Shown here in pieces: positions 34,076 through 45,970 of a stretch of 64,000 bases of DNA; the stretch's first letter is position 1; the number at the start of each line of letters is the position of its first letter. This DNA comes from Acidobacteriota bacterium (lineage in GTDB: Bacteria; Acidobacteriota; Vicinamibacteria; Vicinamibacterales; SCN-69-37): positions 186,001 through 250,000 of the forward strand of contig JADYYY010000005.1 in NCBI GenBank assembly GCA_020853395.1. The letters are read 5' to 3'. The notes beneath the pieces are model-generated. The model worked only from the letters and a program-made list of their open reading frames with translations, did no database searches and was not told where the DNA came from. The position numbers and the translations under genes were made by a program.

Positions 34076-35104
34076 CTACGCCGTGAGCCCGAGGTCGGCC
34101 GACGAGCGCGACGGCTCGATCCAGCCCTGGAGCTCGCGGCCGACGATCGCCGCGAGCGCGTCGAGCCACGCGTCGTGCGTGTTGAGGCACGGCACGCGCC
34201 GGTACTCGCCGCCACCCTCGAGCCGGTAGATCTTGCCGTTCGTCAGATCCATCTCCTCGAGCGTCTCGAGGCAGTCGGCCGTGAACCCCGGGCAGAGGAC
34301 GGCGAGGCGTTCGAGCCGGCGGTGGGCCAGATCGCGGAGCGTCTGCTCGGTGTAGGGCTGCAGCCACTCCTCGCGACCGAACCGCGACTGGAACGACACC
34401 GTGACGCGATCCTGCGGCCAGCCCATGACCGCCGAGAGCGCGCTGGCGGTCGCGAGACACTGCTGCGGATACGGGTCGCCCAGCGTGGCATATCGCTTCG
34501 GCAAGCCGTGGAAGCTCATGAGCACGTGGTCGGCGGGCCAGTCGCCGAGCGCATCCCGAACGGTGGCCGCGAGCGCCTGGATGTACTCGCGCGCGAGGAA
34601 ATACGGCGGGACGACGCGGACGGGCGGCACCACCCGCCGCCGCCCGGCTTCCTCGAAGAACTGCTGCACGCTCGAGCCGGTCGTCGCGCTCGCGTACTGC
34701 GGGTACATCGGGACCGCCACGAGCCGATCGCACCCGGCCGCGATCAGCTCGTCGATGGCTCGCGACACCGGCGGCTGTCCGTACCGCATCGCGTAGGTGA
34801 CGCGCACGGCAGCCCCGGGCGAGGCGCGCTGGAGCCGCTCCTCGAGCCCGCGCACCTGCCCCTGCGTGATGACCGCCAGCGGCGACCCTTCCGGTGTCCA
34901 GATCCGCCGGTAGAGCTCGGCTGAGCGCTTGGGCCGCGTCGGCAGCACCATGCCGTACAGGATCGGCCACCACAGCGCGCGCGGCAGGTCGATCACCCGC
35001 CGATCGTTGAGAAACTCGTGCAGGTACCGGCGCAGCGCGGACGTTTCCGGCGCGTCCGGCGTGCCCAGTTGCAGCAGGACGATGCCGACCGAAGGGGCGG
35101 ACAT
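34076..35104 (-). CDS. hemH: Ferrochelatase
   Basis: Inserts Fe2+ into protoporphyrin IX, the last step of protoheme synthesis; 342 aa. It opens GIVLLQLGTPDAPE. It has YAMRYGQPP, VPMYPQYASATTGSS, the active-site histidine region SFHGLPKRYATLGDPYPQQC, VSFQSRFGREEWLQPYT, and CPGFTADCLETLEEMD with the second conserved acidic pair. The ATG at 35104 gives the classical N-terminus. It is divergent from the hemA-hemG operon across a 119-bp promoter region, and its 3' end faces dinB across 16 bp. Confidence 0.97.
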   Translation of the reverse strand: MSAPSVGIVLLQLGTPDAPETSALRRYLHEFLNDRRVIDLPRALWWPILYGMVLPTRPKRSAELYRRIWTPEGSPLAVITQGQVRGLEERLQRASPGAAVRVTYAMRYGQPPVSRAIDELIAAGCDRLVAVPMYPQYASATTGSSVQQFFEEAGRRRVVPPVRVVPPYFLAREYIQALAATVRDALGDWPADHVLMSFHGLPKRYATLGDPYPQQCLATASALSAVMGWPQDRVTVSFQSRFGREEWLQPYTEQTLRDLAHRRLERLAVLCPGFTADCLETLEEMDLTNGKIYRLEGGGEYRRVPCLNTHDAWLDALAAIVGRELQGWIEPSRSSADLGLTA

Positions 35105-35223
35105 GGTTGGAGCGTAGCGCGCCGGGCAGGGCGCGCGTAGCGTTCGGACAAAGCCCGGACAATCGGACAATCCGATGACACTTCCCGCCGCCCGCATGAA
35201 TAAGATCACCTGAGAGGTCTTTC
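35105..35223. promoter_or_regulatory. Divergent hemH/hemA promoter region with CGGACAA direct repeats
   Basis: The 119-bp region between divergent start codons contains three CGGACAA heptamers at 35145-35151, 35156-35162 and 35164-35170. The first two are 11 bp apart, the spacing of tandem sites bound by OmpR/PhoB-family regulators. Such a regulator (40628-41305) is encoded inside the hem operon. A tgaataagat tract at ~35195-35204 may be a -10 element for hemA. The operator assignment is inference. Confidence 0.45.
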
Positions 35224-36057
35224 GTGTTCGTCCTTCACCAGCCGCCCGGCCGAGCGACCTTGCCCGTCGACGCACCCGTCTGGCGCACGTGTCTGCGCGA
35301 GGTGGCGTTCGTCGACGACTGGCATCGCGCGGCACCCGGACAGCAGCTCGTCGGCCACGCGGAGGCGTACGCCCTGCTGCTCGAGATCGTGACCGGCCTG
35401 CGATCGCCGCTCGTCGGCGAGACGGAAGTGCAGGCGCAGTTCAAGGCCTTCCTGGCCTCGCTCGATCCGGCAGCGCACCTCGATCTGCACCGGCTCGGAC
35501 AGCGGGTTCTGGCGGACGCGAAGTACATCCGCCAGCATCATCTCCAGGGATTCGGCGCCCACTCGTACGGAGTGCTGGCCGCTCGCCGCGTGCCCTCGGG
35601 CCGGCGCGTCGCGCTCGTCGGCGCGGGCGCGCTCGCCGGCCAGGTCACGGCGGCCCTTGCCGGCCGTCACACGATCGACCAATGGGCGCGGCGAGCCGTC
35701 GAGGGGCGGCCGGCGCTCCTGCTCATCGCCACGGCGGATGCGCGCGGCGTGGTCAGCTCCGCGCCGACGACGCTCGTCCTCGCCTCGCCGGTGGCGTCGG
35801 CCGTGGCCGCCACCGTCGCCCGCTGCTACGCCGATGTGCGCGAAGTCATCGACCTGCGCTCGGCCGATCAGCGATCGCCGATCGCCGACGACCTGCCGGT
35901 CGTCACGCTCGACACGCTGTTCGCCGACGCGCGCGGCTCGGCGTGCATGCCCGCCGAGCGGATCGAGGCGGCGCGGTCCGACATCACCCGCCTCGCACGT
36001 GCTTTCGAGCGCCGGGAACAGGTGCGTCCCCTCGGGTGGGACGATCTGTGCGCCTGA
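35224..36057 (+). CDS. hemA: Glutamyl-tRNA reductase, short divergent form
   Basis: First enzyme of C5 heme synthesis, glutamyl-tRNA to glutamate-1-semialdehyde. It is only 277 aa, against ~420 in most bacteria. RTCLREVAF (C23) matches the catalytic cysteine region STCNRTE. GLRSPLVGETEVQAQFKAFL matches the GLDSMVLGE block, and GRRVALVGAGALAGQV is the NADPH Rossmann motif. The N-terminal strand is shortened and the C-terminal dimerisation helices are missing. The assignment rests on these blocks plus position: the first gene before hemCD, hemB and hemL. GTG start at 35224. It overlaps hemC by ten bases. Confidence 0.8.
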   Translation: MFVLHQPPGRATLPVDAPVWRTCLREVAFVDDWHRAAPGQQLVGHAEAYALLLEIVTGLRSPLVGETEVQAQFKAFLASLDPAAHLDLHRLGQRVLADAKYIRQHHLQGFGAHSYGVLAARRVPSGRRVALVGAGALAGQVTAALAGRHTIDQWARRAVEGRPALLLIATADARGVVSSAPTTLVLASPVASAVAATVARCYADVREVIDLRSADQRSPIADDLPVVTLDTLFADARGSACMPAERIEAARSDITRLARAFERREQVRPLGWDDLCA

Positions 36058-37526
36058 GGCTGCTCAGCCGATCGAGCGCGCTCGCGACACTCCAAACCGA
36101 CTTCGTCGAGCGCGCGTTGCGATCGCGCTGGCCGTCGCTCGCGATCGACCGCGCGACGCGATCGTCGGAGGGCGACCGCGATCGCCGGCTCGATCTGTGG
36201 GCGACGGGCACCAAGGGCGTTTTCACCGCCGATCTGTCGGCCGCGCTCCTCGCCGGCGACGCCGAGGCCGTCGTCCACTCCTGGAAAGACCTGCCGATCG
36301 ACGATCGCGCCGAGACGCTCGTGGCGGCGACGCTCGAACGCGCCGATCCGCGCGACGTGCTGCTCGTCCGGCGCGAGGCCGCCGAAGCGCGGCCCGAGAC
36401 GCTGCGCGTGCTCTCGTCGTCGCCGCGGCGCGTCGCCGAGATCACCGCATCGGGCCACGGTCTGCTGCCGTGGACGATGTCGGCGTGGGAGAGCGTGCCG
36501 GTGCGCGGCAACATCGCGACGCGCCTTCGCAAGCTCGTGAACGGCGACGGCGACGCGCTGGTGATGGCGAAGGCGGCCCTCGACCGGCTGCTGTCGGCCG
36601 AGGCACCAGCCGGCACGGCCGCGGACGTCCGCCGCCTCGTCGATCGATGCCGCTGGATGGTGCTGCCGCTCCAGGACTTCCCGACGGCCGCCGCCCAAGG
36701 CGCCATCGCCGTGGAGGTCGCGGCGCATCGCGCCGACGTGCTCGACGTGATGCGCGCCGTGAACCACGAGCCGACGTGGCGGGCCGTCCTCCGCGAGCGC
36801 GAGACGCTGCGGGCGTTCGGCGGCGGCTGCCACGATGCGGTCGGCGTGACCGTGCTCGTGCGAGACTACGGAGAGGTGATGAGCGTACGGGCCAGCGTGC
36901 CGGACCGCCCGCCGGCGCACTCGTGGACGCTGACGCGCCCGCCGGCGCCGCTGCCGCCACCGACGACGATGGATCGGGTTTGGCCGCAGCCGTCGGAACG
37001 GGAGTTCACGCGACGCCGGCCGATCGACGCGGCCGGCAGTCTGCCGGAGGGCGGCGTGTGGGTCACGCGCGCCGAGGCGCTGCCGGCCCGCTGGATGCCG
37101 GCTGCCGACCAGCCGGTGTGGGCTGCCGGCCGCCGCACGTGGGAAAGGCTGGCCGCGCGCGGGATCTGGGTCAACGGCTGCGCCGAAGGGCTCGGCGACG
37201 CCGAACGCCCCGGCATCGATCAGATGGTCGGACATCCCGTACCGTGGCGACGCCTGACGCACGCCGAGGCCGGCGATCCGGAGGCGCTGGTCACCTACAC
37301 CGCGGACGTCCAATTCCCGGCCGATCTCGAGGCCCGCACGCACTTCTACTGGACGAGCGGCAGCGCGTTTCTTCGGGCGCTCGCGCTCCATCCCTCGATT
37401 GCCGGCGGGTGGCACGCGAGCGGCCCGGGACGGACGGCGCGCGTGATTCACGACGCGCTGGCGTCGCCGGCAAGGGCAAGCATCTGGCTGGACTACACCC
37501 AATGGCTTCGTCACGTGACACCCTGA
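36048..37526 (+). CDS. hemC: Fused hydroxymethylbilane synthase / uroporphyrinogen III synthase-like (HemC-HemD)
   Basis: A 492-aa two-domain protein. Residues 1 to ~290 are porphobilinogen deaminase. HSWKDLP (D81) is the catalytic aspartate, VPVRGNIATRLRKL binds the growing chain, and FGGGCHDAVGV carries the dipyrromethane cofactor cysteine C261. Residues ~325-492 form a second domain (GGVWVTRAEALPAR, VWAAGRRTWERLAARGIWVNG, HFYWTSGSAFLRAL) that resembles the HemD part of HemC/D fusions such as that of Leptospira. No other hemD is in the operon, so this domain most likely supplies uroporphyrinogen III synthase. It starts at GTG 36048 inside the end of hemA. Confidence 0.88.
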   Translation: MRLRLLSRSSALATLQTDFVERALRSRWPSLAIDRATRSSEGDRDRRLDLWATGTKGVFTADLSAALLAGDAEAVVHSWKDLPIDDRAETLVAATLERADPRDVLLVRREAAEARPETLRVLSSSPRRVAEITASGHGLLPWTMSAWESVPVRGNIATRLRKLVNGDGDALVMAKAALDRLLSAEAPAGTAADVRRLVDRCRWMVLPLQDFPTAAAQGAIAVEVAAHRADVLDVMRAVNHEPTWRAVLRERETLRAFGGGCHDAVGVTVLVRDYGEVMSVRASVPDRPPAHSWTLTRPPAPLPPPTTMDRVWPQPSEREFTRRRPIDAAGSLPEGGVWVTRAEALPARWMPAADQPVWAAGRRTWERLAARGIWVNGCAEGLGDAERPGIDQMVGHPVPWRRLTHAEAGDPEALVTYTADVQFPADLEARTHFYWTSGSAFLRALALHPSIAGGWHASGPGRTARVIHDALASPARASIWLDYTQWLRHVTP

Positions 37527-38497
37527 ACGCCGCCGCGCCAGCGTGGTCGCGGCTTCGCCTCCGGCAAACGGCGCATCTCCGCGACCTGGTCGCCGAGACG
37601 TCCTTCTCCGTCGCGCAGCTCGTTCAGCCGGTGTTCGTGGACGAAGCGCTGACCGGGAGCGAGCCCATCCCCGGGCTCGGCGACAACGCCCGGCACGGCC
37701 GCGCATCGGCGCTCGACGCCATTGCCCGTGATCTCGACGCGGGCGTGACGCACTTCCTGCTCTTCGCCGTGCCGTCCGCGAAGCGCGAACACGCGCTCGA
37801 GTTCGGCCACGCGGCCCGCACCGTCGAGTCGATCGTCTCGAGATTCGGCGATCGCCTCCATCTCTGGGTGGACATCTGCCTCTGCTCGTCGACGACGCAC
37901 GGGCACTGCGCGGTGCTCGAACCGGGGGGCGGGATCGATCTCGGCGCGACGCTCGACGCGCTCACCCGCGCATCGGTGAGCGTCGCCGACGCCGGCGCCC
38001 ACGGCGTCAGCCCGAGCGACATGATGGACGGCCGCACGGCGGCGATTCGCGCCGGGCTCGACGCGGCCGGCCATGGCCGCGTGCCGATCATGAGCTACAG
38101 CACGAAATTCGCGAGCCAGTTCTACGGACCCTTCCGCGTGGCGGCCGACTCGGCGCCGCAGTTCGGCAATCGCCGGCACTATCAGATCGACGTGCGCTCC
38201 CGCCGCGACGCGATCGGCTCCAGCCTCCGGTGCGCCGAGGAGGGCGCCGACCTGCTCATGGTCAAGCCGGCGATGACGTCGCTCGATCTCATCGGCCCGA
38301 TCGGCGACGCGACGGGCGCGCCGGTCGGCGCGTACCAGGTGAGCGGCGAGTATGCGAGCCTCCTCGCGCTCGCCGAACGCGGCTTCGCGGACTTCGACGC
38401 GGCGTTCGCCGAAACGCTCCACGTGCTCCGCCGCGCCGGCGCGGCGTTCATCATCACCTACGGCGCGCGGCGCGCGCGCGCGGCCGGCCTGGCATGA
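37502..38497 (+). CDS. hemB: Delta-aminolevulinic acid dehydratase (porphobilinogen synthase)
   Basis: Condenses two 5-aminolevulinate molecules to porphobilinogen; 331 aa. Schiff-base lysines are K202 in SYSTKFASQFYGPF and K255 in LLMVKPAM. The zinc-type cysteines C126, C128 and C136 (DICLCSSTTHGHC) indicate a Zn-dependent rather than Mg-only enzyme. PGGGIDLGATL is slightly unusual in the region that normally reads GxIxND. It overlaps the hemCD end by 25 bases and hemL by ATGA. Confidence 0.97.
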   Translation: MASSRDTLNAAAPAWSRLRLRQTAHLRDLVAETSFSVAQLVQPVFVDEALTGSEPIPGLGDNARHGRASALDAIARDLDAGVTHFLLFAVPSAKREHALEFGHAARTVESIVSRFGDRLHLWVDICLCSSTTHGHCAVLEPGGGIDLGATLDALTRASVSVADAGAHGVSPSDMMDGRTAAIRAGLDAAGHGRVPIMSYSTKFASQFYGPFRVAADSAPQFGNRRHYQIDVRSRRDAIGSSLRCAEEGADLLMVKPAMTSLDLIGPIGDATGAPVGAYQVSGEYASLLALAERGFADFDAAFAETLHVLRRAGAAFIITYGARRARAAGLA

Positions 38498-39777
38498 GCA
38501 GCCAGTCGCTGTTCGATCGCGCGCGGCTCACCGCGCCCGGCGGCGTGCACAGCCCGGTCCGCGCCTTTCGCAGCGTCGGCGGCACGCCGGTGTTCTTCGC
38601 GTCAGCCGCCGGCCCGCGCCTCACCGACGTTTCGGCCGTGAGCTACATCGATTTCTGCATGAGCTTCGGGCCGCTCATCCTCGGCCACCGCGATCCCGTC
38701 GTTCGCGATGCCGTCGCGCGCAGCCTCGAGGACGGCTGGTCGTTCGGCGCGTGCGAGCCGTATTCGCTCGCGCTCGCCGAGTGGATCCTCGCGCGCGTGC
38801 CCTGGGTCGAGCGGCTGCGCTTCGTCTCGTCCGGCACCGAGGCGGTGATGTCGGCGCTGCGCGTCGCTCGCGCGGCGACCGGCCGCTCGACGATCCTGAA
38901 GTTCGAGGGGTGCTATCACGGCCATGCCGACGGCCTGCTCGTGCGCGCGGGCAGCGGCCTCGCCGGCCGGACCGCGGCGACGAGCGCCGGCGTTCCGGAC
39001 GGCACGCTCGCCCACACCGTCGTCGCGCCGCTCGACGACGACGCGGCGGTGGCGCTCGCGTTCGAGCAGCACGGCGAGGATCTCGCGGCCGTGATCGTCG
39101 AGCCGGTGCCGGCCAACTACGGCCTGCTGCCGCAGCGGCCGGAGTGGCTCACGATGCTCGCCGAGGCGTGCCGCGCGAACGGCACGCTGCTCATCCTGGA
39201 CGAAGTGATCACCGGATTCCGCACCGGTCTGGCCGGCGCGGCGGGTGCGTTCGAGATCACGCCGGATCTCGTCTGCTACGGGAAGGTCATCGGCGGCGGG
39301 TTTCCCGTCGCCGCGTACGGCGGCCGCGCGGACCTGATGGCGCTCGTCGCGCCGGACGGTCCCGTGTATCAGGCCGGCACGCTCAGCGCGAATCCCGTCG
39401 GCATGCGGGCCGGCCTGGCGACGCTCGAGGAGATGACGCGGCGCGACGGCTGGACCGTGCTCGAGCACCGGGCGGACCAGTTCGTCCGCGAGCTCGGTGC
39501 GGCACTGGCCGAGGTCTCGTCCGATTTGCACGTCGTGCGCCACGCCTCGCTGTTCTGGATCCGCCGCGGTTCGGCGGAACCGGTGCGACGGCCCGACCGG
39601 ATCGGCGCGGATCACGCCGAGTGGTTCGCGCGGTTCTTCCACGCCGCGCTCGCGCGCGGCGTCTACCTGCCGCCGTCGGCCTATGAAGTGAGCTTCCTGT
39701 CGATGGTGCACGACCAGGCCACGCTCGAGCAGGCGCGCGCCGTGCTCGCTCAGGCGGCCAGGGACGCCGAGCCATGA
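38494..39777 (+). CDS. hemL: Glutamate-1-semialdehyde 2,1-aminomutase
   Basis: PLP-dependent class III aminotransferase-fold enzyme making 5-aminolevulinate, 427 aa. The start SLFDRARLTAPGGVHSPVRAF is canonical. The PLP-phosphate region is VSSGTEAVMSALRVARAATGR, the PLP aspartate is in LLILDEVITGFR, and the internal-aldimine lysine is K264 in YGKVIGGGFP. It confirms the C5 pathway together with hemA. It overlaps hemB upstream and the histidine kinase gene downstream, both by ATGA. Confidence 0.97.
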   Translation: MSSQSLFDRARLTAPGGVHSPVRAFRSVGGTPVFFASAAGPRLTDVSAVSYIDFCMSFGPLILGHRDPVVRDAVARSLEDGWSFGACEPYSLALAEWILARVPWVERLRFVSSGTEAVMSALRVARAATGRSTILKFEGCYHGHADGLLVRAGSGLAGRTAATSAGVPDGTLAHTVVAPLDDDAAVALAFEQHGEDLAAVIVEPVPANYGLLPQRPEWLTMLAEACRANGTLLILDEVITGFRTGLAGAAGAFEITPDLVCYGKVIGGGFPVAAYGGRADLMALVAPDGPVYQAGTLSANPVGMRAGLATLEEMTRRDGWTVLEHRADQFVRELGAALAEVSSDLHVVRHASLFWIRRGSAEPVRRPDRIGADHAEWFARFFHAALARGVYLPPSAYEVSFLSMVHDQATLEQARAVLAQAARDAEP

Positions 39778-40628
39778 CGGGCGGGCCGATCGGCAGCCGG
39801 GTGCACTACGTGATCGCCATCTGCTGGCTCGTCGCGACGGTGTCGCTGGCCTCGTGGTGGCTGGCCCTCGGGCTCTCGCTATCGCCGACGACCGCGATGC
39901 ACCGCATGTTCCTCTGGGAGGGCGGCGCGTTCATCGCCCTGCTCGTCGCCGGCGGCACGACGATCGTGCTGGCGATCCGGCGTGAGCACCTCCGCCGCCA
40001 GTCGCTCGAGACGTTCTTCATGTCGTTCACCCACGACTTGAAGACCTCGCTCGCGCGGGTCCAGCTCGAGGCCGACGGTCTCCGTGAGGACTGGCCCGAG
40101 GCGCTGCCGAGCGAGGCGCTCGATCGGCTGCTGCACGACATCGTGCGGCTCCAGATTCAGCTCGAGAACTCGCTGTTCGTGGCGCAGCCGGACGGCCGGC
40201 TGCTCAGCGAGCGCATCGACGTGCGCACGGCGGTGGCGCGGCTCGCGCTCGACTGGCCCGATCTCTCGATCGCCGTCGAGGGCGACGCGCTCGTCCTCGT
40301 GGACGCGCGCGCGTTCGACGCCGTGCTGCGCAACCTCCTGCAGAACGCCGCCGTGCACGGCGGCGCGCGGCACGTCCGCATCCGCGTCGAGCCGCAGGAT
40401 CGCGGCAGCGTGCGGCTGACGGTCGAGGACGACGGCCGCGGCGTGCCGGCGGAAGTGCTCGCCGGCCTCGGCCAGCCGTTCGCGCGCGTCGGCCGCACGG
40501 GCGGCACGGGCATCGGGCTGTTCGTCTGCGGCAGGCTCGTGGCGCGCATGCACGGCGCCCTGCAGTTCCTCTCGCCGTCGGCCGGCCAAGGGCTGACGGT
40601 GCGCATGGAGCTGCCAGGGGCGTCCTGA
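39774..40628 (+). CDS. Sensor histidine kinase inside the heme operon
   Basis: A 284-aa membrane histidine kinase. Two transmembrane helices (~12-34 and ~48-68) are separated by only ~13 residues, so it has no extracytoplasmic sensor domain and probably senses within or near the membrane. The phosphoacceptor is H87 in SFTHDLKTSLARVQ. The ATPase shows the N box LRNLLQNAAVHG, G1 DDGRGVP and G2 GGTGIGLFVCGRL. The gene is translationally coupled to hemL (ATGA) and to the response regulator (TGATG), so it is co-expressed with the heme enzymes. The signal is unknown; heme, porphyrin or redox state are plausible. Confidence 0.92.
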   Translation: MTGGPIGSRVHYVIAICWLVATVSLASWWLALGLSLSPTTAMHRMFLWEGGAFIALLVAGGTTIVLAIRREHLRRQSLETFFMSFTHDLKTSLARVQLEADGLREDWPEALPSEALDRLLHDIVRLQIQLENSLFVAQPDGRLLSERIDVRTAVARLALDWPDLSIAVEGDALVLVDARAFDAVLRNLLQNAAVHGGARHVRIRVEPQDRGSVRLTVEDDGRGVPAEVLAGLGQPFARVGRTGGTGIGLFVCGRLVARMHGALQFLSPSAGQGLTVRMELPGAS

Positions 40629-41305
40629 TGCCGCGCGTGTTGCTCGTCGAAGACGACGAGTCGCTCGGCCGCACGCTGACCGAGCGGCTCCAGAAGGAAC
40701 GGCTGGACGTCGTGTGGGCCACGACCGTGGCGAGCGCGACGACCGCGCTCAAGGAAGGCGGGTGGGACTTGGCGATTCTCGACGTCCGGCTGCCCGATGG
40801 ATCCGGCTTCGGGCTGGCGCGCCAGATCAAGCGGACGTCGCTCACGCCCGTCATGTTCATGACGGCGCTCAACTCCGCGGAGAACCGGCTCGAGGGCTTC
40901 GAGACCGGCGCCGACGAGTACCTGCCGAAGCCGTTTCACCTGAAGGAGTTCATCCTCCGGGTTCGGCACGTGCTCGCGACGCAGCACGTCCCGGACGTCG
41001 TGCGCACGCACGGCCGCGAGATCGATCTGCGTGCGCTCACGGTGACGACGCCGGGCGGCGAGCGCGCGTTCCTGCAGGTGCGCGACGGCCAGGTGCTGAA
41101 GCTGCTGATCGCCGCGGCGCCGGCCGCCGTCGATCGATCCGCGATTCTCGACCGCGTGTGGGGACGCGATCAGTTCCCGACGCCGCGGGCGGTGGACAAC
41201 ACCATCGTCCGCCTGCGGCAGGCGCTGCAGGACGATGGCGGGCACTTCATTCGGTCGGTCCGCGGCGTGGGCTATCAATGGACGCCCGATCCGGAGGCGA
41301 CATGA
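40628..41305 (+). CDS. OmpR-family response regulator inside the heme operon
   Basis: A 225-aa DNA-binding response regulator. The receiver domain has the acidic pocket VEDDES, phosphoacceptor D52 in ILDVRLPDG, T79 in FMTAL and K101 in YLPKPF. The C-terminal winged helix (~130-222) ends SVRGVGYQW, the OmpR/PhoB hallmark, with recognition-helix region AVDNTIVRLRQAL. Its start overlaps the kinase stop and its stop overlaps the hemE start (ATGA). Likely targets include the hemH/hemA divergent promoter (CGGACAA repeats); this is inference. Confidence 0.94.
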   Translation: MPRVLLVEDDESLGRTLTERLQKERLDVVWATTVASATTALKEGGWDLAILDVRLPDGSGFGLARQIKRTSLTPVMFMTALNSAENRLEGFETGADEYLPKPFHLKEFILRVRHVLATQHVPDVVRTHGREIDLRALTVTTPGGERAFLQVRDGQVLKLLIAAAPAAVDRSAILDRVWGRDQFPTPRAVDNTIVRLRQALQDDGGHFIRSVRGVGYQWTPDPEAT

Positions 41306-42330
41306 GCCATCCGTTCCTCGCCGCGCTGGAAGGCCGCGTGCAGGCCGTGCCGCCCATCTGGTGCATGCGGCAGGCCGGCCGCTACCAGCGCGCGTATCAG
41401 CAGTTCCGGCAGCAGCACTCCTTCGAGACGCTGTGCCGGGAGCCCGAGCTCGCGGCGCAGGTCGCGATGGCCTCGATCGACGACTTCGACTTCGACGCGG
41501 CCATTCTCTTCAGCGACCTGCTGTTCCCGCTCGACGCGCTCGGCCTCCCGGTGCGCTACGACGACGGCCGGCCGGTCGTCACCCGCCGGCTGACGGCCGA
41601 CACGATCGGCGAGCTGCGCGACGTGGACGCGGCCGCCGCCGCGCTCGCGTTCCAGAGCGAGGCCGTGGCGGCGCTGCGGCGCCGGCTGCCGGGCGAGAAG
41701 GGGCTCATCGGGTTCGTCGGTGCGCCGTGGACGCTCTTCGTGTACGCGGTCGAGGGCACGCACGCCGGATCGCTCGTCATCGCGAAATCGTCGCGGGCGC
41801 TCTACCGGCGCTTCGCGCCGATCGTGGTGGAGCTGCTGGAGCGCGCGATCGGCGCCCAGCTCGCGGCGGGCGCCGACCTCGTGATGGTGTTCGACACGGC
41901 GGCCGGCGAGCTGTCGCCGCCGGCCTTCCGCCACCTGCTGCTTCCCGATCTGCGCCGGCTCGCGGATCGCTTTCCGGGCCGGCTCGGCTACTACGCGCGC
42001 GGCCTGCATCCAGCACACCTTGAGCACAGCATGGCGCGGCCGAGCACCGCGTGGGCAGGGCTCGGGGTCGACTGGCGTTGGAACGTGCCGGACGTGCTCG
42101 CCTCGGACGCCGACCGCGGCTTCATCCAGGGCAACTTCGATCCGGCCCTGTTGCAGCTCACCGGCAGCGACCTCCGGCAGGCGATCGACGAGTTCCTCGA
42201 GCCGTTCGCCCAGCTCGAGCCGGAGGCGCGCGCCGGGTGGATCTGCGGGCTCGGCCATGGCGTGCTGCCGGGCACGCCCGAAGAAAGCGTCAAGACCTTC
42301 GTTCAGACGGTCCGGAGGCGCCTGTCATGA
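41302..42330 (+). CDS. hemE: Uroporphyrinogen decarboxylase
   Basis: Decarboxylates uroporphyrinogen III to coproporphyrinogen III; 342 aa. The family signatures are PIWCMRQAGRYQRAYQQFR near the N-terminus and GLIGFVGAPWTLFVYAVEG in the middle. Catalytic aspartate region: AAILFSDLLFPLDALG. The C-terminal GNFDPALL and GLGHGVLPGTPEESVKTFV segments are conserved. The ATG at 41302 overlaps the response regulator stop, and the end overlaps hemN by ATGA. Confidence 0.97.
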   Translation: MSHPFLAALEGRVQAVPPIWCMRQAGRYQRAYQQFRQQHSFETLCREPELAAQVAMASIDDFDFDAAILFSDLLFPLDALGLPVRYDDGRPVVTRRLTADTIGELRDVDAAAAALAFQSEAVAALRRRLPGEKGLIGFVGAPWTLFVYAVEGTHAGSLVIAKSSRALYRRFAPIVVELLERAIGAQLAAGADLVMVFDTAAGELSPPAFRHLLLPDLRRLADRFPGRLGYYARGLHPAHLEHSMARPSTAWAGLGVDWRWNVPDVLASDADRGFIQGNFDPALLQLTGSDLRQAIDEFLEPFAQLEPEARAGWICGLGHGVLPGTPEESVKTFVQTVRRRLS

Positions 42331-43679
42331 ACCGCACGGATCTGTTCGCCAAGTACGACCTGCCGGTCCCCCGGTACACGAGCTATCCGACCGTGCCGCA
42401 ATGGCACGCCACGCCGACACCCGACGAGTGGGTCGACTCGCTCACCCGTGCGGCGTCCGCCGACAACGGATCGATCGCCATCTACGTCCACCTGCCGTTC
42501 TGCGAATCGCTCTGCAGCTACTGCGGCTGCAACACGGTCATCACGCGCGACCACGGGCGCGAGGGGCCGTACGTCGATCTGGTGCTGGCCGAGCTCGACC
42601 TGTATCTGTCGCGCGTGCCGTCCCTCGCGCAGACGCCGATGCGCGAGATCCATCTCGGCGGCGGCACGCCGACCTTTCTCTCGTCCGGCTCGCTCGTGCG
42701 GCTAATCGACGGCCTCATCGGACGGCTCTCGGCCGGCGCCGAGTTCATCGGCGCGGTCGAGGTGGACCCGCGAGTCACGACCATCGAGCAGCTCGAGACC
42801 ATGCGCGCGCGCGGGTTCCGCCGGATCTCGCTCGGCGTGCAGGACATCGATCCGGAAGTGCAGCACCTCGTGAACCGGCATCAGCCGGTCGAGCTGACGG
42901 CCACGCTCTGCGCGGCCGCGCGCGATCTCGGCTACGAGTCGCTGAACGTCGATCTGATCTACGGGCTGCCAGGACAGACGCCCGAATCGATGACGCGGCT
43001 CGTGCCCGAGATCGTCCGGCTCGCGCCGGATCGGCTGGCCGTCTACAGCTTCGCGCGCGTGCCCTGGATCAAGCCGGCGCAGCGCCGCTTCCGCGACGAC
43101 CAGATCCCGACCGGCGCGGAGAAGCGGCGGCTCTACGAGATCGTGCGCGACGGGCTGCTCGAGGCGGGCTACCTCGAGATTGGCCTCGATCACTTCGCGC
43201 GCCCGCACGACTCGCTGGCCGTGGCGGCCGCCCGCGGCACGCTGCACCGCAACTTCATGGGCTACACGGACGTCCACACGACGACGATGGTCGCGCTCGG
43301 CGTGAGCGGCATCTCCGAGACGGACGATTGCTATCACCAGAACGAGAAGGTGCTCACGCGGTACGAGGAGCGCGTGCGCGCCGGCGAGATCCCGACACAT
43401 CGCGGCCACCGGCTCTCGCCCGAGGATCGGCGGCGGCGCGCCGGCATCGCCTCGCTCATGAACACGCTCTGCGCCGATCTTTCGCCGGCCGATCTCGAGG
43501 CGAGCGCCGGCCGGCTCGCCGAGCTGGCCGACGACGGCCTGCTCGACGTGCGCGGCCATCGCCTGATCGTGCGGCCGGAGGGGCGGCCGTTCCTGCGCAA
43601 CATCGCCGCCGCGATCTTCGACGAGTACGCGCAGCTCGATCGACAGCGCACCGGGCCGCTGTACTCGACCTCGGCCTGA
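42327..43679 (+). CDS. hemN: Oxygen-independent coproporphyrinogen III dehydrogenase (radical SAM)
   Basis: Converts coproporphyrinogen III to protoporphyrinogen IX anaerobically; 450 aa. The radical-SAM cluster is CESLCSYCGC (C59, C63, C66 with C68), preceded by IAIYVHLPF. Further HemN blocks are EIHLGGGTPTFLS, EVDPRVTT, FRRISLGVQDIDPEVQ, NVDLIYGLPGQTPESM and YSFARVPWIKPAQRR. The conserved N-terminal KYDLPVPRYTSYPTV marks true HemN rather than HemW. Its presence with HemG and HemH shows the protoporphyrin branch. Confidence 0.96.
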   Translation: MNRTDLFAKYDLPVPRYTSYPTVPQWHATPTPDEWVDSLTRAASADNGSIAIYVHLPFCESLCSYCGCNTVITRDHGREGPYVDLVLAELDLYLSRVPSLAQTPMREIHLGGGTPTFLSSGSLVRLIDGLIGRLSAGAEFIGAVEVDPRVTTIEQLETMRARGFRRISLGVQDIDPEVQHLVNRHQPVELTATLCAAARDLGYESLNVDLIYGLPGQTPESMTRLVPEIVRLAPDRLAVYSFARVPWIKPAQRRFRDDQIPTGAEKRRLYEIVRDGLLEAGYLEIGLDHFARPHDSLAVAAARGTLHRNFMGYTDVHTTTMVALGVSGISETDDCYHQNEKVLTRYEERVRAGEIPTHRGHRLSPEDRRRRAGIASLMNTLCADLSPADLEASAGRLAELADDGLLDVRGHRLIVRPEGRPFLRNIAAAIFDEYAQLDRQRTGPLYSTSA

Positions 43680-43680
43680 C

Positions 43681-44886
43681 ATGCGCGCCGCGCGCGTCGT
43701 CGGCGGCGGGCTGAGCGGGCTGGCCGCAGCCTCGCACCTGTCGGATGCCGGATTCGAGGTCGAGGTCGTCGAGGCGTCGGGCCGGCCCGGCGGGCTGATC
43801 GAAACGCTTCGCACGCCCGACGGCCTCGTCGAGTGCGCCGCCAACGCGTTCGTCTGGACCGAGACGACCGCGCGATGGTTCCAGCGGCTCGGCCTGACGC
43901 CGGCGTTCCCCGGGCCGCTCTCCCGCCGGCGCTTCGTGTTCCGAAGCGGCCGGCCGCGGCGATGGCCGCTCGGCATCGCCGAGTCGCTGTCCATGGCCGC
44001 ACGCGGCGTCGCCGCGCTCGGCACGCGGCGCACGCGGCCGCACGAGCGCGAGAGCGTCGCGGCCTGGAGCGCGCGGGTCGTCGGCCGGGGCGCCACCGAG
44101 TGGCTCGTCGGCCCGGCCCTGCAAGGCATCTACGGCGCGCCGGCGGATCGTCTCTGCGCGCGCGTGATCATCGGCCGGGAGCGCCCGCCTCGCTATCAAG
44201 GCCAGCGGCTGGCCGCGCCCGAGGGAGGTATGGGCCAGTTCATCGACGCGCTCGTGAACGATCTCGAGCGGCGAGGCGTCACGATCCGGCTCGGCCATGA
44301 CGTGAACCACCTCGCCGCAGACGTCCCGACGGTGATCGCGACGAGCGCGCCGCCGGCCGCGGCGCTCGTGGCGTCGCACGCGCCGGCGCTGGCGGATGCG
44401 ATTCGGCGCGTGAGCATGACGTCGATCGTGACCACGACGGCGTTCTTCGCGCCGCATCCGGACGACGCGCACGGCTTCGGCGTGCTGTTTCCGCGCTCGA
44501 CGGGCGTCGAGGCGCTGGGCGTGCTGTTCAACGCCGACGTGTTCGCCGGCCGGAGCGCGCTGCGATCGGAAACGTGGATCTATCGGACGACCGGCGCCGC
44601 GGCGACGCTGCCTTCCGGCGAGACGATCATGACGGTGCTGGCTGCCGATCGCGAGCGGCTGACCGGGCGCCGCGACGCCCCAGTCTCGTGGCGGATCGTC
44701 CGCCGGCCCGACGCGCTGCCGATCTACTCGTGCGATGTGCTCGACGTCGCTGCGCGCGTGCCGGACTGCCCGCCGTGGCTCGCGCTGGCGGGCAACTACC
44801 TCGGCAGGATCGGCGTGGCGGCGCTCCTCGAGGGATCGGAGGCGGCCGCCGCGCGGCTGATCGCCGCTAGCGCTTCTCGACCCTGA
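43681..44886 (+). CDS. hemG: Protoporphyrinogen oxidase (HemG/HemY type)
   Basis: FAD-dependent oxidase of protoporphyrinogen IX to protoporphyrin IX, 401 aa (shorter than the usual ~460). The dinucleotide motif is VVGGGLSGLAAASHLSDAGF, followed by EASGRPGGLIETL. VVGRGATEWLVGPALQGIYGAPADRLCAR and the C-terminal LALAGNYLGRIGVAALLEGSEAAA are family signatures. It starts one base after the hemN stop and is the last gene of the operon. Its 3' end overlaps the convergent PPIase gene by 20 bp. Confidence 0.92.
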   Translation: MRAARVVGGGLSGLAAASHLSDAGFEVEVVEASGRPGGLIETLRTPDGLVECAANAFVWTETTARWFQRLGLTPAFPGPLSRRRFVFRSGRPRRWPLGIAESLSMAARGVAALGTRRTRPHERESVAAWSARVVGRGATEWLVGPALQGIYGAPADRLCARVIIGRERPPRYQGQRLAAPEGGMGQFIDALVNDLERRGVTIRLGHDVNHLAADVPTVIATSAPPAAALVASHAPALADAIRRVSMTSIVTTTAFFAPHPDDAHGFGVLFPRSTGVEALGVLFNADVFAGRSALRSETWIYRTTGAAATLPSGETIMTVLAADRERLTGRRDAPVSWRIVRRPDALPIYSCDVLDVAARVPDCPPWLALAGNYLGRIGVAALLEGSEAAAARLIAASASRP

Positions 44887-45970
44887 CCTGCTTCATCACG
44901 ATGTCCTGCCGCGGCGTCTCGCCCTCGACCGACACCGTCGCGATCGTGCGGACGACGTCCATGCCGCTGATCACGCGGGCGAAGGCGGTGAACTTCCCGT
45001 CGAGGCCGCGGCACTGGCCGGTACAGATGAAGAACGACGTGGTCGCGCTGGCCGGATCGTCGCCGTGCGCCATCGAGACGACGCCGGGCACGTGGGTCGT
45101 GTCGTTGAACTCCGGCTTGAGGGGATGCACGAGCCGGCGCTGCGCGCCGGTGAGCGGCGTCGCCCGGAAGTTGAGCGCGCCGGTCTGGATCACGAAGTTC
45201 GGCACGATGCGGTGGACCTTGATGCCGTCGAAGATCTTCGCCTGGGCGAGGCGGAGGAACTGCCGCACCGTCTCGGGCGCGACCTTCGGCAGCATCTCCA
45301 GCTCGATGTGGCCCATGGTGGTCTCGATCACCGCCTTGTAGCCGGCGAGATCGGCCGGCGTGTCGTTGACGAACGGCTCCGGCGGCGTATCGCGAATCGT
45401 GATGTTCGTGATCTCCACGCGCGCCTTCGGCAGGCCGGCCGCGCTGGCCTCGGCCGCCGAGATCGCCTGCACGACCTCCATGCCCTCCACGACGCGGCCG
45501 AACACGTCGTACTTGCCGTCGAAGTCGGGCTGATCCGTCACGCACACGAAGAACTGCGCGCCGCCGCTCGCCGGCATCGACAGATCGCGCACCGTCGAGA
45601 CGGCGCCCGACGTGTGCTTCTGGTCGTTCTCCTCGCGGGCGAGCTGGTGAAACCCGCCCTGTCCGTAGTCGGCGGCCTTCGCCGGGTCCTTCGTGTTGGG
45701 ATCGCCGCCCTGGATGACGGCGTTCTTCAACACGTAGTGGAACAGGGTCTTGGCGTACGCGCCGTCGCGCGCCTGCTTCATGAAGAAGCCGACGTGGTTC
45801 GGCGCCACGTCGGGGAGGAGCTGGATGACGAACTGCCCCAGCGTCGTCTCGACGACGGCCTGCTTCCCTCTCATCTCCTCCGCCGAGTACGGCGACTGGA
45901 CCGGCGGTTGGGCCGAGGCCGCGGGAGCGGCCGCAGCGGACAGCAACAGGACGAGGATCCCGGCGCGCAT
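44867..45970 (-). CDS. Secreted peptidyl-prolyl isomerase with two cyclophilin domains
   Basis: A 367-aa exported protein: signal peptide (GILVLLLSAAAAPAASA) and two cyclophilin-type domains in tandem. Domain 1 is at ~53-205 (VVETTLGQFVIQLLPDVAPNHV, FHYVLKNAVIQGGDPNTKD, GGAQFFVCVTDQPDFDGKYDVFGRVVEGM). Domain 2 is at ~223-367 (AVIETTMGHIELEMLPKVAPETV, SFFICTGQCRGLDGKFTAFARVISGM). Catalytic Arg is not conserved in either FHY or HRI motif context (R retained only in domain 2, VHRIVPNFVIQ), so domain 1 may be degenerate. Starts at ATG 45970, divergent from the rhodanese gene. Confidence 0.9.
   Translation of the reverse strand: MRAGILVLLLSAAAAPAASAQPPVQSPYSAEEMRGKQAVVETTLGQFVIQLLPDVAPNHVGFFMKQARDGAYAKTLFHYVLKNAVIQGGDPNTKDPAKAADYGQGGFHQLAREENDQKHTSGAVSTVRDLSMPASGGAQFFVCVTDQPDFDGKYDVFGRVVEGMEVVQAISAAEASAAGLPKARVEITNITIRDTPPEPFVNDTPADLAGYKAVIETTMGHIELEMLPKVAPETVRQFLRLAQAKIFDGIKVHRIVPNFVIQTGALNFRATPLTGAQRRLVHPLKPEFNDTTHVPGVVSMAHGDDPASATTSFFICTGQCRGLDGKFTAFARVISGMDVVRTIATVSVEGETPRQDIVMKQVRVEKR

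Follow-up and report, generated by a model that had tools for sequence, protein, structure and literature searches.

The heme biosynthesis operon described here lies in a 64,000-nucleotide stretch of DNA (the window) from an Acidobacteriota bacterium (GenBank assembly GCA_020853395.1, contig JADYYY010000005.1, positions 186,001 to 250,000), and contains genes for a histidine kinase and an OmpR/PhoB-type response regulator that are very probably HemKR, the two-component system of Leptospira, here controlling the operon in which it sits. The genes run in the order hemA-hemCD-hemB-hemL-kinase-regulator-hemE-hemN-hemY, with hemH divergent (Table 1) and, as read directly, the joints are ATGA overlaps for hemL/kinase (at 39774), regulator/hemE (41302) and hemE/hemN (42327), and a TGATG overlap for kinase/regulator (40626-40630). 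This confirms the observation of an earlier note on this DNA, which had placed such a pair between hemL and hemE with overlaps of these kinds; its claim that the pair belongs to the heme operon is supported. A sigma-70 promoter scan of 35050-45000 on both strands returned no match, and none inside the operon, although, because it accepts spacers of 16-18 only and the proposed hemA promoter (spacer 19-20) likewise escapes it, this is weak evidence against internal promoters.

Table 1. Features of the heme operon and its promoter region (window coordinates; aa, amino acids; bp, base pairs; TM, transmembrane)
Feature	Coordinates	Strand	Evidence and remarks
hemH, ferrochelatase, divergent from operon	34076..35104	-	Pfam Ferrochelatase 2.6e-105
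hem-box-like direct repeat 1, GGACA-N6-GGACA	35146..35161	+	hemH/hemA gap; one of 2 genome-wide GACAAWNYNNKGACA matches
hem-box-like direct repeat 2, GGACA-N6-TGACA, in conserved promoter register	35165..35180	+	other genome-wide GACAAWNYNNKGACA match
-10-like element TAAGAT	35201..35206	+	20 bp after box 2; picked by eye, spacing computed
hemA, short divergent glutamyl-tRNA reductase, GTG start	35224..36057	+	GlutR_N 9.5e-5, under Pfam cut-off
hemC/hemD-type fused gene, start approximate	36036..37526	+	Porphobil_deam 5.8e-45
hemB	37502..38497	+	ALAD 5.8e-96
hemL	38494..39777	+	Aminotran_3 3.4e-59; 58% to L. interrogans HemL
hemK, histidine kinase, 284 aa	39774..40628	+	HATPase_c 3.1e-21; two TM helices, 8-residue loop, H87, T91
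hemR, OmpR/PhoB-type response regulator, 225 aa	40628..41305	+	Response_reg 1.5e-21, Trans_reg_C 7.5e-16; D52
hemE	41302..42330	+	URO-D 5.4e-79; HemE tree
hemN	42327..43679	+	Radical_SAM 1.2e-18; 47% to L. interrogans HemN
hemY/hemG-type protoporphyrinogen oxidase	43681..44886	+	Amino_oxidase 9.7e-22; name from position and family

The two-component systems HssRS, HrrSA and ChrSA lie beside efflux or heme oxygenase genes and act on excess heme; the window pair is probably likewise a two-component system for heme, but with different neighbours. The HemKR studies that we found concern Leptospira only, and a literature search that covered few subscription journals returned no paper on HemKR in Acidobacteriota. 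In L. interrogans the two genes (hklep/rrlep) are flanked by hemL and hemE and reportedly share their transcript (Louvel et al. 2008, PMC2266917, data not shown), the locus reading hemA-CD-B-L-K-R-E-N, then a DUF5683 gene and hemG, with hemH beyond on the other strand. The slot between hemL and hemE is thereby ruled out as novel, and the premise of the earlier note, which had implied that a heme-responsive system inside the pathway was without precedent, is wrong because L. interrogans HemKR occupies the same position; overall, its interpretation holds for operon membership, is likely to hold for signal and feedback, and fails for the unprecedented position. The hemL/hemE linkage seen in the window is nonetheless not universal in Leptospira, the L. 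biflexa pair (LEPBIa1423/1422) being apart from hemA (LEPBIa1171) (PMC2266917, PMC11426443), while for a Bdellovibrio bacteriovorus homologue the likeness is a reported linkage to heme biosynthesis genes (PMC2266917, data not shown).

Identities to the L. interrogans products are 58% for HemL, 49% for HemB, 47% for HemN, 46% for HemE, 36% over 519 positions for the fused hemC/hemD product (matched to a bifunctional porphobilinogen deaminase/uroporphyrinogen synthase, its hemD part being named by similarity to Leptospira only), 34% over 140 residues for HemA and 31% for the kinase; the position of hemY is comparable to that of L. interrogans hemG. The 277-residue hemA product is the top of only two weak GlutR_N matches genome-wide (the other E 0.325), and the L. 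interrogans hemA, annotated as hypothetical, is named here by its match to it. The regulator is 48% identical to L. interrogans HemR, its best match at 188 bits in a tblastn search of the plasmid collection (next organisms 116 bits); the best-scoring other regulator of the source genome is 35% identical to it, and one partial receiver match 36%. Its best NCBIfam match is TIGR02154 PhoB (6.3e-37), and because the 127 bits fall far below the curated cut-off of 296 bits it is not a PhoB member by curated score. PhoB-type regulators do share its receiver and Trans_reg_C layout, and the PhoB box, like the site in the window, consists of direct repeats spaced 11 bp near the -35 region.

Maximum likelihood trees place the pair with Leptospira. 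In the regulator tree, L. interrogans HemR and 10 Acidobacteriota rows group at 100/100 against 27 other Acidobacteriota regulators (nine of a clade termed d2, discussed below, and 18 others; the bootstrap had not fully settled, and a second regulator tree agrees). L038, L039 and L040, whose aligned part did not exceed 150 residues, were dropped from one regulator tree. L. interrogans HemK and nine Acidobacteriota kinases likewise form a clade of 10 rows at 100/100 against 15 others, and L. interrogans HemE groups with ten HemKR-type sequences at 100/100 against 24 other acidobacterial HemE (21 non-HemKR-type and three d2 loci, drawn from 204 genomes). Within this sampling, and as judged from sequence, we identify the kinase-regulator pair as HemKR and as an orthologue of the Leptospira system.

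The residues on which HemKR signalling depends in Leptospira have counterparts here. By motif and spacing, kinase H87 and T91 correspond to L. biflexa H98 and T102, and the regulator's receiver aspartate D52, itself assigned by motif, to D53 (PMC2266917, PMC11426443), the L. biflexa residues being matched from the papers and its sequence standing outside the alignment; H87 and T91 (His+4) are invariant in all ten HemK-clade kinases. The Pfam search returned HisKA (7.5e-5; 23.1 bits, below the 26.9 cut-off) and HATPase domains only, with no cytoplasmic sensor domain, and hydropathy places two hydrophobic stretches at about residues 13-31 and 50-68. The alignment gives 8 residues between these helices compared with 28 in L. 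interrogans, the loop having 5-8 residues in four kinases, the window's included, and 19-23 in five. A new signature in the first transmembrane helix (TM1), W...TV.L..WW, occurs in 10/10 HemK and in 0/16 other kinases, hem-linked ones included, three of the latter having little sequence ahead of the match. Of the 56 positions that make up the two-helix region, 13 are the same in all ten kinases (six of them in the TM1 signature), and of the 204 catalytic positions, 30; the pair E49-G50 also occurs in kinases beyond the HemK clade and may thus be structural. Identity between the window and L. interrogans kinases is 57% in TM1, 33% in TM2, 35% in DHp and 30% in the ATPase domain, but the TM1 figure alone is weak, because a helix of few residue types inflates identity and because DHp exceeds TM1 in five of nine comparisons (TM1 being higher in L041, L042, L043 and L091). 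In Leptospira the periplasmic loop of the kinase can be replaced without loss of function and a membrane-less kinase fails to complement (PMC2266917), the soluble HemK core being a kinase without detectable phosphatase activity (PMC11426443). Taken with the TM1 signature, these results point to the transmembrane helices themselves as the putative sensor and, as the earlier note had suggested from the two helices and short loop, a membrane-embedded or internal signal is likely.

Between hemH and hemA, region 35105-35223, which the earlier note had named for regulator binding, holds the two predicted hem-box-like sites. HemR binds TGACA[N6]TGACA (Imelio et al. 2024, PMC11426443); the window matches this only provided that the opening base of the first half-site is relaxed, and differs from the Leptospira promoter in its two tandem boxes with GGACA first half-sites. 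With that relaxation, which was made after the sites had been seen, NGACA-N6-TGACA lies upstream of hemA in all seven readable Acidobacteriota operons and in L. interrogans, i.e. in 8/8 promoters (window, L035, L036, L041, L042, L043, L045 and L. interrogans), and the exact published form in three (L036, L045 and L. interrogans). The distance from TGACA to a -10-like hexamer is 19-20 bp in 8/8 promoters, all eight hexamers having been picked by eye. Shuffled sequences matched in 7 of 20000 cases for the window and, per 5000, in 7 for L035, 0 for L036, 5 for L041, 0 for L042, 0 for L043, 7 for L045 and 4 for L. interrogans. The looser NGACA-N6-NGACA, sought in nine HemKR-type loci, occurs at hemA in 6/6 readable promoters and three times elsewhere (L034 begins in hemCD, so that its promoter is unreadable, and the d2 locus L049 lay outside the box scan). 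The published motif minus its first base gives seven matches in the source genome against two in the control, one of them at hemA; at the other six, no heme gene was recognised in frame lists read by eye only. In L035, L036, L043 and L045 only 6 bases separate the -10-like hexamer from the presumed hemA GTG, compared with a gap of 17 in the window, so the hemA message of these four may be leaderless; their hemA starts were judged by eye, and L045 has an earlier out-of-frame ATG.

Two further box-like sites were seen, either of which may be due to chance: one in genome G014 (L106), on the contig of the hem operon and about 60 bp ahead of a gene for a CytoC_RC-type cytochrome, and one in genome G167 (L112), where an HlyD-family gene is preceded, at about 40 bp, by 15 bases that match the G167 hemA box exactly. 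In E. coli, MacAB exports protoporphyrin (PMC4263509).

Among 297 Acidobacteriota genomes, source genome included, the regulator was found at E <= 1.1e-74 in seven (next best 2.1e-44); this clear gap, and the position of the pair inside a hem operon in six of the seven, argue that its placement is not due to chance. The order hemL-K-R-hemE is present in five (G000, G014, G277, G067 and G025), and the operon of G167 reads hemA-K-R-hemE. Four of seven genome-collection loci also fall in the HemKR clade, namely L034, L035 and L036, each with hemL-K-R-hemE, and L037, whose sequence starts within the kinase gene and which neither the kinase tree nor the promoter counts include; L036 and G014 were taken as one organism and counted once, and L005 was not used beside L036. 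HemE was detected at E <= 1e-30 in 204 of the 297 genomes, seven of which reach E <= 7.0e-111 (next 4.4e-58), these being G230, which lacks the pair, and the six genomes whose hem operon contains it. A pair-less close relative with an otherwise identical operon, such as would have told against the earlier note, was sought, and no such genome occurs among the 297. The nearest exception is G230, where HemKR-type HemE is accompanied by hemN, hemY and hemH, without hemA, hemCD, hemB or hemL in that cluster, and no box lies in the hemH/hemE gap. G134 and G151, the two other sampled genomes from the source genome's family that lack the pair, have neither ALAD (PF00490) nor a HemE match at E <= 1e-30, and are perhaps heme auxotrophs notwithstanding a HemL-like match (38%) in G134.

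These data bear on whether the pair is a passenger, caught in the operon and regulating something elsewhere. Operon content is indeed labile in places, the G167 operon lacking hemCD, hemB and hemL, but that operon keeps the pair though these three biosynthetic genes are gone, the slot is the same in L. interrogans and Acidobacteriota, and the box accompanies the pair at hemA and is absent from the pair-less G230 gap; we consider a passenger most improbable.

With Leptospira HemKR the window pair shares the slot between hemL and hemE and the hemA-to-hemN order (of L. interrogans), the two-TM domain layout, the TM1 signature, the phospho-acceptor and phosphatase residues, a hem-box upstream of hemA and clade membership. 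In L. biflexa, hklep/rrlep mutants require hemin or 5-aminolaevulinic acid (ALA), single mutants have hemA, hemE and hemL transcripts reduced 2 to 10 fold (PMC2266917), and ALA shuts HemKR down via HemK phosphatase activity, for which T102 is needed (PMC11426443). From these experiments we infer phosphotransfer, box binding, activation and ALA shut-off, and join them to the gene arrangement, orthology, conserved residues, boxes and promoter geometry observed here. The transmembrane pair of HemK would sense how full the tetrapyrrole pathway is, through ALA, a porphyrin or heme, and, when product is scarce, HemK would phosphorylate HemR, which would then bind the direct-repeat hem-boxes located at the hemA -35 region and immediately before it and activate hemA-CD-B-L-K-R-E-N-Y, its own genes included; with the pathway full, HemK would switch to phosphatase via T91 and the operon would fall back. 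The feedback role in tetrapyrrole synthesis that the earlier note had suggested is, by this analogy, likely.

Several points weigh against control of this operon by an orthologous HemKR. Three of the four half-sites in the window read GGACA, not TGACA, and the published motif with up to two mismatches is rarer in the window (8 found) than shuffles lead one to expect (17.9). A tightened motif, GACAAWNYNNKGACA, has two matches in the source genome, both at hemA (reversed control 0), but was partly derived from the very sites it recovers; in eight relatives it gives 14 matches against seven in the reversed control, five at hemA, and the nine away from hemA are no more than chance expects (control seven), so that they were rejected as further HemR targets. 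Leptospira is the sole tree row from another phylum, and the rows were collected by similarity to window sequences. Hemin raises the hem transcripts of wild-type Leptospira 2 to 4 fold (PMC2266917), which is at odds with simple end-product feedback, and a double deletion left the hemA operon not significantly changed (PMC11426443), indicating composite control. PF01126 heme oxygenase was found in 0/8 Acidobacteriota genomes, source included (other heme-degrading families were not searched); the hmuO-type heme oxygenase is a repressed target in Leptospira, a difference that concerns the regulon and not the identity of the pair. Finally, G275 (L044) has the pair, but the 19 kb retrieved there contain no hem gene. 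There, the HemKR orthologues adjoin an LptF/LptG gene.

The separation in G275, a ligand that is not fixed, the absence of a cytoplasmic sensor domain from the Pfam search and the mixed effects of iron, ALA and hemin in L. biflexa (PMC2266917, PMC11426443) would also suit a two-component system that responds to some other signal (redox, oxygen or envelope state) with the heme genes as its output. Nevertheless, the orthologous system of L. biflexa responds to ALA, boxes stand at hemA in every readable promoter and the tight motif is confined to hemA in the source genome, and we regard a different signal as improbable.

Other regulators occupy comparable positions. The clade d2 occurs in hem operons of nine genomes (families f13, f11 and f36), arranged as hemL-K-R-hemE in L046, L049, L050 and L051, as hemCD-K-R in L094 (followed by hemE) and L100 (where the contig ends), and, in L095, L096 and L097, as a lone regulator that fills the space between hemL and hemE and leaves none for a kinase. 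An exact TGACA-N6-TGACA lies between hemH and hemA in L050, one of the six d2 genomes for which the sequence upstream of hemA was available, and no box was found there in L094, L096, L097, L098 and L100. Among the nearest relatives of d2 in the tree are regulators from family f49 and from L055, whose checked surroundings contain no hem gene, and constraining HemKR and d2 as one clade gave a log-likelihood 19.1 lower (approximately unbiased test, p = 0.054). This second regulator clade in the same kind of operon slot as HemKR is new. In L054 (G005), the space between hemL and hemB holds one more kinase-regulator pair, which looks unrelated. Family f31 regulators, about 37-41% identical to that of the window, were rejected as candidates, L047 having no hem gene and L060 only a 25% hemN-like match some 5 kb away.

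HemKR in Acidobacteriota is likewise new, and its patchy distribution, with a HemE lineage of its own, suggests transfer of the operon as a unit. Both HemE types occur within one order and one family (f2), and G167 carries a second, ordinary hem cluster (L101) beside its HemKR operon. It may instead be that nothing moved between phyla and that two ancient operon types were retained in some lineages and lost from others, a history of origin rather than function that we take to be a real possibility, if short of an even chance: the direction and timing of any transfer are not fixed, Leptospira is the only other phylum sampled and, in the regulator and kinase trees, it branches outside the Acidobacteriota rows. 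Sorting by loss sits less easily with the co-occurrence of the two HemE types in one family, with the two clusters of G167 and with the single clade formed by HemKR-type HemE, Leptospira included. We offer, as a tentative proposal only, that heme operon, HemKR and hem-box form a self-regulating cassette that passed in one piece between Acidobacteriota and the Leptospira lineage, with the bare transmembrane pair as its sensor; this pair would detect its ligand, which may be a porphyrin or heme soluble in the membrane, within the bilayer.

With a second phylum, in which the kinase is reduced and the promoter geometry constant, the HemKR signal can be approached by comparison, and the 13 invariant two-helix residues, the six of the TM1 signature among them, are the first candidates for a sensing site. 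If the cassette was indeed transferred, the feedback circuit of a biosynthetic pathway can travel between phyla together with the pathway itself.

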